DNA of 61,500 nucleotides, taken from positions 4,056,001 through 4,117,500 of the forward strand of contig NZ_CP097349.1 of the NCBI RefSeq assembly GCF_023516215.1. Direction: 5' to 3'. Below, one piece after another: positions 7,433-49,316 of the stretch. The DNA comes from Cytobacillus pseudoceanisediminis (GTDB taxonomy: Bacteria > Bacillota > Bacilli > Bacillales > Cytobacillaceae). The position numbers and the translations under genes were made by a program. Within the stretch, counting starts at the first letter, position 1. Each line of letters starts with the position of its first letter. The notes beneath the pieces are model-generated. The model saw nothing but the letters and a program-made list of their open reading frames with translations, did no database searches and was not told where the DNA came from.

Positions 7433-7696
7433 AAAAGCGGAAGCGCCTTGCCCGCGAAAGATGGCAGACTAAGAACGCCCACGTCCTGTGGCAACGTCTG
7501 CATAACCCGCATCCTCCAAAAAGCTGTCGATGTTTATGCTGACGAAGCCTTCCTTGTCCTGCGGGCCTCAGGCATAAGACGATTCCTGTAAGAAGGTTCT
7601 TTTTTCTGAAAGGAAATGGTTTAGACCTGAGAGTCCCCAGGAGCCGAAACTAGACAAGCTTGTGACCTCGAGGGGGTAGGCGCTGGAGCTAGATGC
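7433..7696 (+). repeat. Stem-loop interspersed repeat, copy A (long, with insertion)
   Basis: Opens with AAAAGCGGAAGCGCCTTGCC and closes with GAGGGGGTAGGCGCTGGAGC, the two ends being imperfect inverted repeats. At about 260 bp it is twice the usual length and holds extra sequence in its left half (7463-7580) plus the segment GGAGCCGAAACTAGACAAGC near 7650, also seen in the copy in the 5S-23S spacer. It fills most of the gap between cysK and pabB; nothing else is recognised in 7353-7751. Confidence 0.8.
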
Positions 7697-7751
7697 AGAC
7701 ACTCTTCCACAGAGTTATTTACATCGTTCAATTTTGCAGTCGCCCCATACA

Positions 7752-7783
7752 AAAAAACAGCGGTCATTGGAGACCGCTGTCAT
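7752..7783 (-). terminator. Rho-independent terminator after cysK
   Basis: Minus-strand GACAGCGGTCTC / GACCGCTGT hairpin followed by T7. Confidence 0.9.
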
Positions 7784-7787
7784 ATCA

Positions 7788-8717
7788 TTATTCAGCTTCA
7801 AATTGGTATAAAGGAGTACTTAAATAACGCTCGCCGTTACTTGGGATAATCGCCAGAACTTTTTTCCCTTTTCCAAGCTCTTTGGCAACTTTTAGGGCCG
7901 CACTGATCGCCGCACCAGAGGAAATGCCTCCTAGGATTCCTTCTTCCTTGGCCGCGCGGCGGGCATATTCAAATGCCTCATCGTTTGTAATTTGAATCAC
8001 TTCATCATAAATCTTTGTATCCAGGGTATCCGGTACAAATCCTGCTCCAATGCCCTGGATTTTATGAGGACCCGGCTTTCCGCCTGATAGTACAGGAGAA
8101 TCGGTTGGTTCAACTGCGTAAATTTTGATGTTTTTATATTTTTCTTTAAGCACTTGGCCGGCACCTGTAATCGTTCCGCCTGTACCGATTCCGGATATGA
8201 ATGCATCAAGCTGGTCGCCCATCTGCTCTGTAATTTCAGGTCCTGTTGTTAAACGGTGAATTTCAGGGTTCGCAGGGTTTTCAAACTGCTGAGGCACGAA
8301 ATAGCCATTTTCCTTTGCCAGTTCCTGCGCCTTGCGGATCGCACCGCCCATTCCTTCCGGTCCAGGTGTGAGTACAAGGTCGGCCCCGTAAGCACGAAGT
8401 AAATTTCGGCGCTCCATACTCATCGTCTCCGGCATGACAAGAACCGCTTTATAGCCTTTTGCTGCTGCAATCATCGCTAATCCGATTCCTGTATTTCCAC
8501 TTGTCGGTTCAATAATGGTATCACCTGGTTTAAGGCTTCCATCTTTCTCTGCGGCAGTGATCATTGCCAGGGCAATACGGTCTTTTACGCTGCTTCCAGG
8601 ATTCATGTACTCCAATTTCAGATAAACATCTGCACTATTATCATCAACTAAACGGTTTAGTTTCACAATTGGCGTCTGGCCAACAAGGTCTGCAATCGAA
8701 TTTGCTACACGTACCAT
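7788..8717 (-). CDS. cysK: Cysteine synthase A (O-acetylserine sulfhydrylase)
   Basis: PLP enzyme making cysteine from O-acetylserine and sulfide. The 309-residue protein shows NPGSSVKDR with Lys45 as PLP lysine, PTSGNTG at about 71-77 as the substrate loop, and [10 protein letters not shown] for phosphate binding; ISSGAA is near the C-terminus. ATG 8717 is chosen since GAGGAG lies 7 nt upstream. It has its own promoter at 8761-8789 with a palindrome in the spacer and its own terminator, so it is a single-gene unit between the foldase gene and the folate operon, the same place as in B. subtilis. Confidence 0.96.
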
Positions 8718-8760
8718 TTCCCCACTCCTCATTTCCGACTATTTTTATTGGTTTAATACA

Positions 8761-8789
8761 AATTTACCAATTCCCAATGGGAATGTCAA
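8761..8789 (-). promoter_or_regulatory. cysK sigma-A promoter with operator-like palindrome in the spacer
   Basis: Minus strand TTGACA (8789-8784), 17-bp spacer, TAAATT (8766-8761). The spacer contains the palindrome ATTCCCATTGGGAAT (8784-8770). The position and the ATTCC/GGAAT half sites resemble operators of the cysteine repressor CymR, which controls sulfur genes in Bacillus; the assignment to CymR is inference. Confidence 0.65.
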
Positions 8790-46214: not shown

Positions 46215-46981
46215 TCAGTTTATGCCGAATAATTTTTTTGCATTTTCTGTGGTTGCTTGTGCAACTTCCTCTACCGATAGTCCTTTTATTTCAGCTATCT
46301 GCTCTGCAACTAGTTTGACATAGCTAGGTTCATTCCGTTTTCCTCTAAATGGATGAGGGGTAAGGTAAGGGCAGTCTGTTTCAATCAATAGCTTTTCAAG
46401 CGGAATCACATCGGCTACTTCTTTTGGCTTTTTTGCATTCTTGAATGTCACCGGGCCTCCAAGTGAAATAAAAAAGTTCATATCTACACACTCCTTGGCA
46501 ATTTCAGGGCTGCCGCTAAAGCAATGCATGATGCCGCCTACTTCTCCCGCTCCTTCTTCCTTAAGGATTTCGACTATATCTGCTGTGGCATCACGGTTAT
46601 GGATAACGATGGGGAGCTTAACTTTTTTGCCAGACGGATCTGCTTGCGGAAGACTTCCTGCTGAATATCCTTTGGTGACTTGTCCCAATAATAATCCAGG
46701 CCCATTTCTCCCAGGGCAACGACTTTTGGATGGCTGGAAAGCTCTTCGATCCACCGAAGATCATCCTCTGTCATATCGATGGCATCAACCGGATGCCATC
46801 CTACACTTGCGTAGATGAAATCGTATTTCTCAGTCAGCTCCATCGCCTTCTCAATCGTTGGACGGTCAAACCCAACGACCACGATGTTGGAAATTCCTTC
46901 ATCAAGGGCCCTGTCAATCACCTCTTGTAAATCTTCGTTATATTGTTCGGCATTAAGGTGTGCATGTGTGTCGAAAAACAT
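46215..46981 (-). CDS. tatD: TatD family metal-dependent hydrolase/DNase (frameshifted)
   Basis: TIM-barrel metallohydrolase of the TatD DNase group (YabD in B. subtilis). MFFDTHAHLNAEQYNEDL has the HxH metal site; VGWHPVDA and ALGEMGLDYYW follow. The frame breaks at 46623-46628 (A-run one short) and continues KLPIVIHNRDA, IMHCFSGS and LLIETDCPYLTPHPFRGKRN, then ends KKLFGIN. Corrected length about 255 residues. ATG 46981 follows AAGGAG with 7-nt spacing. Sits 200 nt after metG; exact substrate uncertain (3' exonuclease or D-aminoacyl role in relatives). Confidence 0.93.
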
Positions 46982-47116
46982 CAAAAAACTCCTTTTTCTT
47001 CATATTATTTTTCTATTACTATTATGTCAGGAATGTAACAAAAATAATGTGTTAGCAGAATGGTTCGAATTTAATAAACTCACTAGAAATTACTTTCTAA
47101 GTATAATTTTTCCCAA

Positions 47117-47182
47117 AAATAAAAAACATAGAAATGCCCACGGTATACGCTTAACACTTCTATGTTTTTATGTTTAACAGAA
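47117..47182 (-). terminator. Terminator after metG
   Basis: Minus-strand AACATAGAAG / TTTCTATGTT stem with a 30-nt loop followed by T6. Confidence 0.65.
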
Positions 47183-47195
47183 GAAATCAATAATA

Positions 47196-49160
47196 TTATT
47201 TTACCCTTGCACCCAATGGAAGAGATTCAGCGATTGTGGCAAGTGAAAGTTCTCCGTCTTTTCCTCCTGCTAAAATCATTCCTTCTGAAAGCTCACCGCG
47301 AAGTTTAACAGGCTTCAAATTTGTGACGCAGATGACTTTTCTGCCGACTAGGTCTTCCGGCTTATAGAATTTGGCAATCCCGGAAACGACTTGGCGCTTT
47401 TCATAGCCAAGATCAAGCTGTAATTTTAAGAGCTTATCAGCTTTTTTCACCGGTTCAGCCTGAATGACCTGAGCCACTCTTAAATCGACTTTCATAAAGT
47501 CATCGATTGTGATTTCCTCACTATCCGGCTTTTCCTCTGCTTTTGCTTCCGGCTTTGCTTCCTCTTTAGGAGCAGATCCCTGCATTTTGGTTTTAATGAA
47601 CTCGACTTCTTCATTAATATCCAGGCGAGGGAAAATCGGTTCTCCCTTTAATACCTTTGTGCCTTCAGGGATAAGACCAAATTTTTCAAGGCTTTCCCAA
47701 GATGTTAATGCTTCTTCGTTTACATTCAGCTGTGAGAATACTTCTTTTGGCGTACGTGTCAGGAATGGCTGCAGAAGCACCGCGATTCTGCGCAGGGATT
47801 CCGCCAGATGGGCCATCACACTCGCAAGATCTTCCCTTTTCTCTTCCTCTTTGGCAAGAGCCCAGGGCTGCGTTTCATCTATATATTTATTCGTTCTGCT
47901 GACAAGCTGCCAGACTGCCGAAAGAGCAACAGAGAACTCCATTTTTTCCATTGCTTCCTCATACTTGGAAACCGTCTCACGGTTCATTTGCAGCAGCTGC
48001 TGGTCAAACTCTCCGTTTGAATCTTTATATGACGGAATGACACCGTCAAAATATTTATTAACCATCGCAATCGTCCGATTCAAAAGGTTTCCTAAATCAT
48101 TGGCAAGATCAAAGTTGATTCTTTCCACAAAACCTTCTGGGGTAAACACTCCGTCTGCGCCGAATGGCACTTCGCGAAGCAGGTAATAGCGAAGTGCATC
48201 CAGACCATACCGGTCGATAAGGGTAACAGGATCCACTACATTTCCTTTTGATTTGGACATTTTGCCGTCCTTCATCAATAGCCAGCCATGAGCAAACACC
48301 TTTTTCGGAAGAGGCAGATCCAATGCCATCAGCATGATTGGCCAGTAAATCGTATGGAAGCGCACAATTTCCTTCCCTACCAGGTGCACATCAGCAGGCC
48401 AATAGTTCAGATACTTGGAATCATCATCGGTTCCATAGCCAAGCGCTGTGATGTAATTTGATAGTGCGTCGATCCATACATAAACAACATGCTTAGGATT
48501 GTTCGGCACTTTCACTCCCCAGTCAAAAGTGGTCCTGGATACCGCCAAATCCTCGAGGCCAGGTTTAATGAAGTTATTGATCATCTCATTCTTGCGGGAT
48601 TCAGGCTGTATAAAAGATGGATTTTCTTCATAATACTGCAGAAGCCTGTCAGCGTACTTGCTTACCTTAAAGAAATAGGATTCTTCTTTTACTTTATGAA
48701 CTGGACGTCCGCAGTCAGGGCAGTTTCCATCCACAAGCTGCCGTTCTGTGTAATAAGACTCACATGGCGTACAATACCATCCCTCATATTCACCAAGATA
48801 AATATCGCCCTGTTCCACAAGCTGAGCGAAAATTTTTTCTACAATCTGCTTATGTCTGTCTTGAGTAGTACGGATAAAGTCATCATAGGAAATATCAAGC
48901 TTCTTCCATAGTTCCTGGATACCGGCGACAATTTCATCTACGTACTGCTGCGGTGTTATTCCTTTTTCTTCTGCCTTCTCCTGAATCTTCTGTCCATGTT
49001 CATCCGTTCCCGTCAGGTACATAACGTCAAAGCCGCGCATGCGCTTGTAACGCGCCATCGCATCACCGGCAACAGTTGTATAGGCATGTCCTATATGTAA
49101 ATTTCCGCTAGGATAATAAATTGGAGTGGTTAAATAAAACGTCTTTAATTTGTCCTCCAC
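47196..49160 (-). CDS. metG: Methionine-tRNA ligase
   Basis: Class I synthetase for initiator and elongator tRNA-Met. 654 residues: HIGH at 22-25 ([11 protein letters not shown]), zinc CxxC pairs CTPC and CPDC near 130-147, KMSKS near 300, anticodon-binding helices, a charged Ala/Glu/Lys linker near 540 and a C-terminal EMAP/Trbp111-like tRNA-binding domain ([20 protein letters not shown]). GTG 49160 follows GAGGGAGGG. Named metS in B. subtilis. A repeat copy abuts its Shine-Dalgarno and a short terminated leader lies further upstream. Confidence 0.97.
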
Positions 49161-49176
49161 AAGATTCCCTCCCTCA

Positions 49177-49316
49177 TTTTAAAAGCGCAAGCGCCTTGCC
49201 CACCCCCGACAAGCACAAGACGATCCTCACGGAAAGGCGTTCTTTGCCTTTCTGGGAGGATTGGCTTGTACCTAGAGGGGTAGGCGCCGGAGCTAGATAG
49301 TTATCGAAGTCTAACG
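49177..49316 (+). repeat. Stem-loop interspersed repeat, copy J (long form, best folded)
   Basis: AAAAGCGCAAGCGCCTTGCC, CACCCCCGACAAGC, GATCCTCACGGAAAGGC, loop GTTCTTT, GCCTTTCTGGGAGGATTGGC, TTGTACCTAGAGGGGTAGGC, GCCGGAGCTAGATAG. Nested complementary arms make almost the whole element one long hairpin. Abuts the metG Shine-Dalgarno (49166-49175). Confidence 0.87.

Follow-up and report, generated by a model that had tools for sequence, protein, structure and literature searches.

The 61,500-nucleotide stretch of the Cytobacillus pseudoceanisediminis genome analysed here (contig NZ_CP097349.1, positions 4,056,001 to 4,117,500; hereafter the window) contains ten copies, A to J, of a stem-loop repeat, several of which end directly against the Shine-Dalgarno (SD) sequence of the next gene. 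Our results make it likely that this repeat is a non-autonomous, mosaic mobile element, resembling miniature inverted-repeat transposable elements (MITEs), that targets T-runs in one orientation; close genomes differ in whether the element occupies a given orthologous site. MITE-like repeats are a known kind of element, and the landing rule of this one is unusually clear. An earlier interpretation made from the window alone (the sequence-only reading) had taken the placement to suggest either a targeting rule or selection linked to translation. We recover a targeting rule, with a target that looks like a T-run rather than the SD, as judged from element-free sites and from copies flush with stop codons, and the link to translation is probably a by-product of this landing rule.

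Coordinates are given as window positions, and mRNA sense (S sense) refers to the minus strand of the window. Genome-wide, 163 left ends, which face the SD, were found at up to two mismatches (82 and 81 per strand), compared with 5 (3 and 2) for a reversed pattern; right ends numbered 57 and right leaders 43, with none of either in the control. Placement analyses used the 100 of the 163 left ends that were listed, and copies D, I and J of the window lie outside those 100.

T-runs at element-free orthologous sites

The landing rule was derived from 16 copies that we picked, non-randomly, among those flush with a gene edge (12 with a stop codon and 4 with an SD), together with orthologues from three relatives. 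Of 47 orthologues, 21 were filled and 26 lacked the end, two of the latter being element remnants (L240 and L232). Filled orthologues shared the same junction base in 16 of 21 cases, with the remaining five within 2 nt, and this common base led us to reject spacer erosion after random insertion as an explanation. The 24 element-free sequences, from 12 sites, had a T fraction of 0.56 over the last 8 nt up to the junction and 0.26 further upstream, an enrichment reached in 0 of 20000 permutations, also when permuting by site; across all 26 end-less orthologues the values were 0.57 and 0.27. At the empty places the T-run is mostly followed directly by the sequence that flanks the 3′ end of the element in filled genomes, as in CTCACCCTTTTTCT/TATGCATG (3147138 in genome G006; the slash marks the junction), GGGGCGTCCTTTTTCT/TATCC (538029 in G009), ATGCCGCTTTTTT/TATTTAA (2683586 in G009) and, beside an SD, CCGCACCTCATTTT/TAACCAAGGAGG (564546 in G006). 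A hairpin with a T-tract was detected near the junction in 10 of the 26 end-less orthologues (6 of 13 sites), and the compared sites, judged by eye, usually retain the SD, the stop codon and the terminator-like hairpin. Insertion only at TA or TTTAT was discarded, as the junction T-runs vary. Within the window, the places left empty in relatives at copies A and H, and at an element that precedes the gene with its start at 44176, likewise follow a T-run, in the last case without a visible terminator hairpin.

The same pattern appears on the leader side of filled sites, where 64 copies with a right end show a T peak at −44 to −36 from GTCTAGC, with TAT as the 3′ flank. At least five T in 8 nt were found in 16 of 26 copies separated from gene edges by over 50 nt (4.4 in control windows), and copies at gene edges had the T-run in 17 of 35 cases (9.6 expected, p = 0.002); because copies far from edges also have the T-run, the rule is not made by the gene edge. 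Where a terminator was predicted upstream, its T-tract starts 37–50 nt before GTCTAGC in 20 of 26 copies, a distance that corresponds to the element start.

In the mechanism we favour, a trans-acting enzyme would insert the element 3′ of a T-run, on the strand carrying that run, such that the hairpin-TTTTCT end would point downstream after insertion. In compact intergenic regions, T-runs, those of terminators among them, can lie right beside the next SD or an opposing stop codon (TAA-GAAAAA...), so that the element would come to rest with its end flush against these signals and would leave the terminator, the SD and the stop codon undamaged. The element's own end, a hairpin followed by TTTTCT, is terminator-like and could itself be a landing site, which would explain head-to-tail stacks; elements that start right after the TTTTCT of another are seen for F and G in the window and also in Mesobacillus maritimus, and ends at ~120–127-nt spacing, a match in spacing only, recur in G051, G058 and G068. 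A simple landing rule of this sort would replace the suggested translation control and would also cover stop-codon adjacency and stacking. The family offers many empty and filled sites between sister species, and a small repeat that lands at terminators and carries a terminator-like end would, if the proposal is true, represent a compact self-stacking strategy.

Gene edges, orientation and alternative explanations

For the 100 listed copies, the gene edge next to the SD-side end is a sense-gene start (58 copies) or an opposing-gene stop (42 copies). Ends lay within 4 nt of the opposing stop codon in 25 of these 42; among those with moderate spacers 22 of 32 did so, in a cluster from −2 to 4 nt, compared with 4.9 expected if the junction were uniform within the emptied intergenic region, and earlier gene calls gave 18 of 29 flush (3.8 expected). 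At starts, 17 of 47 ends fell within 25 nt once five starts had been corrected by hand (6.9 expected, p = 5e-5), and 13 of 44 without correction (6.6 expected, p = 0.004), under nulls that bar the junction from the SD itself. A null that allows the junction in the SD, applied to the earlier gene calls, gave 9 of 40 within 20 nt (6.9 expected) and 15 of 40 within 34 nt (10.8 expected; 1400 of 20000), neither of which is significant. The excess near start codons, which the sequence-only reading had put forward as a check, is thus real, modest and non-specific to starts, and is not significant under the null without the SD bar; flushness with opposing stops is the stronger pattern and is not visible in the window. 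Two simpler rules were rejected: the SD (GGAGG) as target sequence, given that no SD stands at the junction of stop-flush sites, and gene truncation by an element-supplied stop codon (TAAGAAAAG), which fits the copies with the stop at −1, a stop codon preceding the element in most other stop-flush copies.

Several observations weigh against a T-run-targeted mobile element. No clear T-run precedes the junction at 303813 in G009, at 2882335 in G003 and G009, or at 4327332 in G006 and G009. Upstream predicted terminators occur in 26 of 64 copies, no more often than at ordinary gene ends (103 of 254), and 19 of 64 copies have one on the other strand (3 of 64 downstream of the 3′ end; 1.4 in shuffled sequence). 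As terminators are unenriched and also present on the other strand, the claim rests on position and T-runs, and terminator presence as such was rejected as the target. Target-site duplications of at least 6 nt were found in 7 of 64 copies against 2.8 expected (p = 0.012), which is weak support; duplications of at least 5 nt gave p = 0.07 and the mean p = 0.16, the best candidates being TATAAAAAT, TTTTATAC, TTTGACAG and TATGTTC. The Y1 transposase domain (Y1_Tnp, PF01797) had 0 matches genome-wide, whereas 5 of 14 control genomes were positive, and no mobilising enzyme was found, PF01797 being the only such family searched genome-wide. Ten of the 18 further leaders are accompanied by a 3′ end (up to 4 mismatches) within 43–318 nt; the other 8 have none nearby at that threshold, with a diverged end visible by eye in several of them. 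The metG slot, filled by copy J in the window, holds a different inverted repeat ending GCTTTCTTA in G002, G008 and G009 and a similar one ending TTTTCATA in G003 (both by eye), which looks like replacement. Finally, genes around the 100 listed copies were called by our own script on an assembly that has frameshifts, with five starts corrected by hand, and the orientation of copies in lagging gene pairs, described next, is not what the T-run rule alone predicts.

All copies in the window share one orientation, as the sequence-only reading had it, while the two strands are balanced genome-wide. An orientation bias, set beforehand as a test, is nevertheless present: 76 of the 100 listed copies follow the inferred direction of replication, a share similar to that of the surrounding genes, of which 392 are leading and 96 lagging. 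Orientation relative to the genes is 48 same to 12 opposite in leading pairs and 1 to 8 in lagging pairs, where copies go with the fork against the direction of the genes; convergent pairs divide 13 to 9 and divergent pairs 7 to 2. The origin (~4.15 Mb) and terminus were placed from gene strands and the start of a RecF-like protein beside the copy at 4148962, which we take to be an origin marker. The bias may reflect T-run direction or fork-dependent insertion. Mobility that depends on the fork or on single-stranded DNA, similar to that of IS200/IS605 or RAYT elements or group IIC introns and distinct from that of a DDE transposase, is the alternative that fares best, although we still consider it unlikely: the fork-following copies, including those in lagging and divergent pairs, argue for it, as does a target like that of group IIC introns in the accessible text of PMC3898094 and PMC7161350, but the genome has no Y1 match, convergent pairs are near even, some copies have 7–9-nt duplications, and the origin position is inferred.

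Random insertion followed by purifying selection would leave elements only in the tolerated gaps that separate terminators, promoters, SDs and stop codons. The occupied slot does seem harmless, given that by eye the SD, the stop codon and the terminator-like hairpin usually remain at the compared sites; the T-run, however, is equal or stronger where the 3′ side offers over 50 nt of space, and the cluster at stops needs more than tolerance, making this scenario quite improbable. One may also postulate a mobile terminator akin to the SPRITE repeats, whose 3′ hairpin and TTTTCT work as an intrinsic terminator and whose copies are kept for that reason. The ends of C, B and A account for 3 of 7 terminator-like sites between 7000 and 12000 of the window, and the enrichment at 3′ gene edges recalls SPRITE as far as the available part of PMC3049150 describes it. 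We hold this to be rather improbable as well, since the tail has only four T, then C, then T, the 7 terminator-like sites compare with 5.3 in shuffles, and F and G immediately precede the mfd SD, a place at which a strong terminator would presumably shut off mfd if transcription did not begin inside the element. Least probable, and in our view very doubtful, is a hairpin kept beside the SD for mRNA stability, attenuation or translation control: the excess near starts and the occupation of the mfd and spoVT slots in most relatives with a fixed 3′ end speak for it, but such a role is not required to account for the placement, opposing stops are more strongly flush, the T-run rule holds far from gene edges, the start excess is not significant once the junction may fall in the SD, outer-stem covariation is weak, and the hslO element is missing in most close relatives.

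Element architecture, Bacillaceae-1 modules and spread

In mRNA sense, an AT-rich leader ending approximately in GAACTTCGATAACT is followed by GTCTAGCTCCAGCGCC, inner hairpin modules and GGCGCTTNCGCTTTTCT. The minimal core of ~62 nt runs through to GGCGCTTNCGCTTTTCT from a right end that is either GTCTAGCTCCAGCGCC, GTCTAGCGCAAGCAGCC or a third type with AGGCGCC, which is undercounted. A leader of ~35–45 nt, AT-rich and ending in ~TTTGAACTTCGATAACT, lies 5′ of the core in many copies, outside the right boundary drawn in the sequence-only reading; the shared left and right ends described there hold for most copies, with the exception of H and I, which have no recognisable right end at up to 5 mismatches. 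At that threshold the first type of right end was matched in 63 of the 100 listed copies. The leader carries TTTGAACTTCGATAACTGTCTAGC. As candidate terminal inverted repeats, AGAAAG near the leader start and CTTTTCT at the opposite end match over ~6 nt only, by eye. The inner hairpin modules are exchangeable between copies, and element length accordingly ranges from about 60 to 430 nt. Short cores (n = 21) are predicted to fold as hairpins of −16 to −42 kcal/mol. Outer-stem covariation among 20 cores amounted to a double change in 3 of 13 pairs, in one sequence each, and its score was matched by 1 of 500 shuffles without control for relatedness among the cores. In the predicted folds of the B, C, F and J leaders the SD is partly paired in all four. 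In the copy G000:C1:4327332 (L068), a further module seemingly lies inside the AGGA loop of an inner hairpin, with AGGA on both sides, as a nested insertion.

One inner module corresponds to a catalogued RNA. The Rfam family RF01690 (Bacillaceae-1) had 45 matches in the genome, 43 of them above the gathering cut-off, which applies to the inner module and not to the whole element. Across 18 scanned loci it was found in copy A and 11 further places. Listed element markers cover 2.5% of the contig, and 33 of the 45 matches are no more than 450 nt away from one; 17 of 18 matches chosen for measuring begin 5–7 nt from an element end; these positions indicate that Bacillaceae-1 is largely an inner module of the repeat family. 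The 12 matches away from listed markers (e.g., G000:C1:5278808, 2827405 and 428384) may be unlisted copies or stand-alone. Rfam lists Bacillaceae-1 as a stand-alone small RNA (sRNA), whereas here it belongs to a larger insertion and the strand modelled by Rfam runs opposite to the mRNA sense. With at least 33 of 45 matches in or by mobile repeats, a tally of Bacillaceae-1 matches as sRNA genes in this genome would for the most part be a tally of insertions.

The regulator CsrA favours ANGGA in loops. In S sense the module presents AGGAY loops on stems that vary in both arms, namely CCCCC/GGGGG, CCCAC/GTGGG, CCCGC/GCGGG, CCAGC/GCTGG, CTCCC/GGGAG and GCCAC/GTGGC; a full 5-bp stem accompanies AGGAY in only 19 of 132 cases within this genome and 25 of 71 within relatives, and the other strand has full-stem AGGAY hairpins in 0 of 71 and 1 of 51. 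Three other loop sequences are commoner than AGGAY on such stems in the own elements, and many copies have lost the 5′ arm of the module hairpin to a further module. According to the accessible part of PMC4333381, CsrA sites were matched on the Bacillaceae-1 reverse complement, with the strand given as uncertain; this match, as far as described there, fits the AGGAY strand of the module. CsrA is encoded in 59 of 61 genomes, our own included, and in 34 of 34 other genomes of the genus, and its near-universal presence cannot be correlated with copy number. That the repeats serve as mobile CsrA decoys, on the strength of predicted hairpins similar to CsrA sites, seems improbable; if true, ~45 modules landing after T-runs in untranslated regions (UTRs) would supply transcripts with CsrA sites, by which the protein would be titrated or recruited, and a selfish element would rewire a global regulator.

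The host belongs to the Cytobacillus oceanisediminis/firmus group, the six best named hslO relatives being 97–100% identical. The end was matched at up to one mismatch in 50 of 61 genomes, the own genome included (0–2 in reversed controls). All 34 other genomes of the genus have it, 31 with 21 to 124 ends and three with 1 to 4; among 26 more distant genomes 15 have it, mostly in small numbers, with 82 in G068 and 34 in G051. Of 80 named hslO loci, each spanning at most 20 kb, 25 contained the end (up to two mismatches), with 0 in the control among those listed, and the taxa comprise Cytobacillus, Bacillus spp., Rossellomorea, Neobacillus, Niallia, Mesobacillus, Parageobacillus and Jeotgalibacillus. 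Carriage by phages or plasmids was rejected, with no phage match and a single partial plasmid match in Cytobacillus spongiae. In the own genome, 20 of 40 genes near the 18 further leaders (17 of 18 loci) had Pfam assignments to ordinary chromosomal genes and none to a transposase. In a searched literature with few subscription papers, there was no match to the exact repeat strings, and no title or abstract among those listed described the repeat family.

Copies in the window and known repeat systems

All ten copies proposed in the sequence-only reading are present, each on the minus strand. Copy A (7431..7733, leader boundary approximate) is a long mosaic element whose Bacillaceae-1 module (7453..7527, 49.8 bits) lies on the plus strand, opposite to the mRNA sense; it is missing in G002, G003, G006, G008 and G009, where its place follows a terminator T-tract. 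Copy B (9791..9890, core 9791–9853 plus leader) is flush with the SD of a gene for a PrsA-like foldase and copy C (10881..11036, core 10881–11001 plus leader) with that of hslO, both with approximate outer boundaries; the hslO place is empty in 7 of 11 close relatives (G003 and G005–G010). Copy D (18324..18479) is absent from G003, G004, G005, G007, G008, G009 and G012. Copy E (28588..28703) lies in the spoVT leader, 34 nt from the spoVT start. At this place 9 of 13 relatives have the end (G001–G006 and G008–G010) with differing inner modules, and G007, G011, G012 and G013 have no end at up to 3 mismatches. Copy F (32523..32620, core 32523–32588 plus leader) is flush with the mfd SD, and copy G (32626..32790, outer boundary approximate) is stacked head to tail upstream of it, the leader of F beginning directly after the TTTTCT of G; 12 of 13 relatives (not G012) carry the end at the mfd place at up to 3 mismatches, much reduced in G008–G010. 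At both mfd and spoVT the element body varies between species while the 3′ end is fixed in place, which leaves room for secondary co-option.

A decayed end (33921..33945) precedes pth at about 17 nt from its start, where G006 has intact elements. Copy H (40792..40920) and the diverged copy I (42564..42680) have uncertain right ends; H is missing in G003, G008, G009 and G011, whose place follows a terminator T-tract. Copy J (49179..49337, core 49180–49298 plus leader) lies before the metG SD. The proposal that B, C, F and J end within a few bases of the SD was confirmed by measured distances of 2–7 nt: read as mRNA, the terminal sequence of B, C and F is ...GCGCTTNCGCTTTTCTTA or -CGTA, about 2–3 nt before the SD, and that of J is ...GCGCTTGCGCTTTT, about 7 nt before it.

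Some features of the neighbouring sequence deserve mention. The mfd gene (28968–32506) has a stop after 498 aa, compared with 1179 aa in four relatives, one of them 99.5% identical over the region, and is probably shortened by an assembly indel; the foldase gene (9067–9776) stops after 48 aa, compared with 288 aa in three relatives, which suggests indel errors in the assembly. A long block of the metG leader (49330–49870) shows conservation across Cytobacillus (GGTATAAGAGGTTATGCTGACGAATATAAC...), with no Rfam match at gathering threshold, followed in closer species by a terminator-like hairpin with TTTTTT, and is possibly an undescribed leader RNA. Positions 24115–24210 hold four imperfect copies of a repeat with a 21-nt period (TTTTATCGGCC / ATTTAACGGCC).

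Among known systems, the bcr1–bcr3 repeats of the Bacillus cereus group, as far as the accessible text of PMC3446304 describes them, are interspersed intergenic repeats of 100–400 bp that are MITE-like and partly co-transcribed in UTRs, with mobility linked to a TTTAT motif in the available part of PMC6542083. The likeness is that of interspersed intergenic MITE-like repeats of Bacillaceae, compared here by description only; in those sources bcr1–bcr3 are restricted to the B. cereus group, whereas the elements described here are mosaic, target a T-run and have a terminator-like end. Bhal-1, Bhal-2 and Bant-1 of B. halodurans and B. anthracis (PMC2267715, accessible part) are 72–76-nt intergenic stem-loop repeats and resemble our elements, again by description only, in being short, intergenic and stem-looped. 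Group IIC introns insert beside terminator hairpins according to the available text of PMC3898094 and share the terminator-adjacent target, but our repeats are 60–430 nt long and contain no gene, and no group II intron family reached threshold in the 18 scanned loci. Repetitive extragenic palindromes (REP) and their RAYT enzymes (IS200/IS605) differ in that the present genome has no Y1 transposase (PF01797, 0 matches).

Further parallels come from repeats of Streptococcus pneumoniae. In the accessible portions of PMC3049150 and PMC10969869, BOX has a modular build in which the inner module varies, SPRITE combines a terminator-like hairpin and a U-rich tail and lies near 3′ gene ends, and BOX, RUP and SPRITE insert into one another; modular build, a terminator-like end, a location at 3′ gene edges and nesting are thus shared, by description and in a different host. 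SPRITE has an 18-bp stem and a long U-rich tail, compared with only TTTTCT here, and its empty site, from what is given of that study, could not be established, whereas 24 element-free orthologues define the junction in our case. The MITE traits found here are that the elements are short, non-coding and dispersed in many copies, with presence or absence at orthologous sites and clean junctions.

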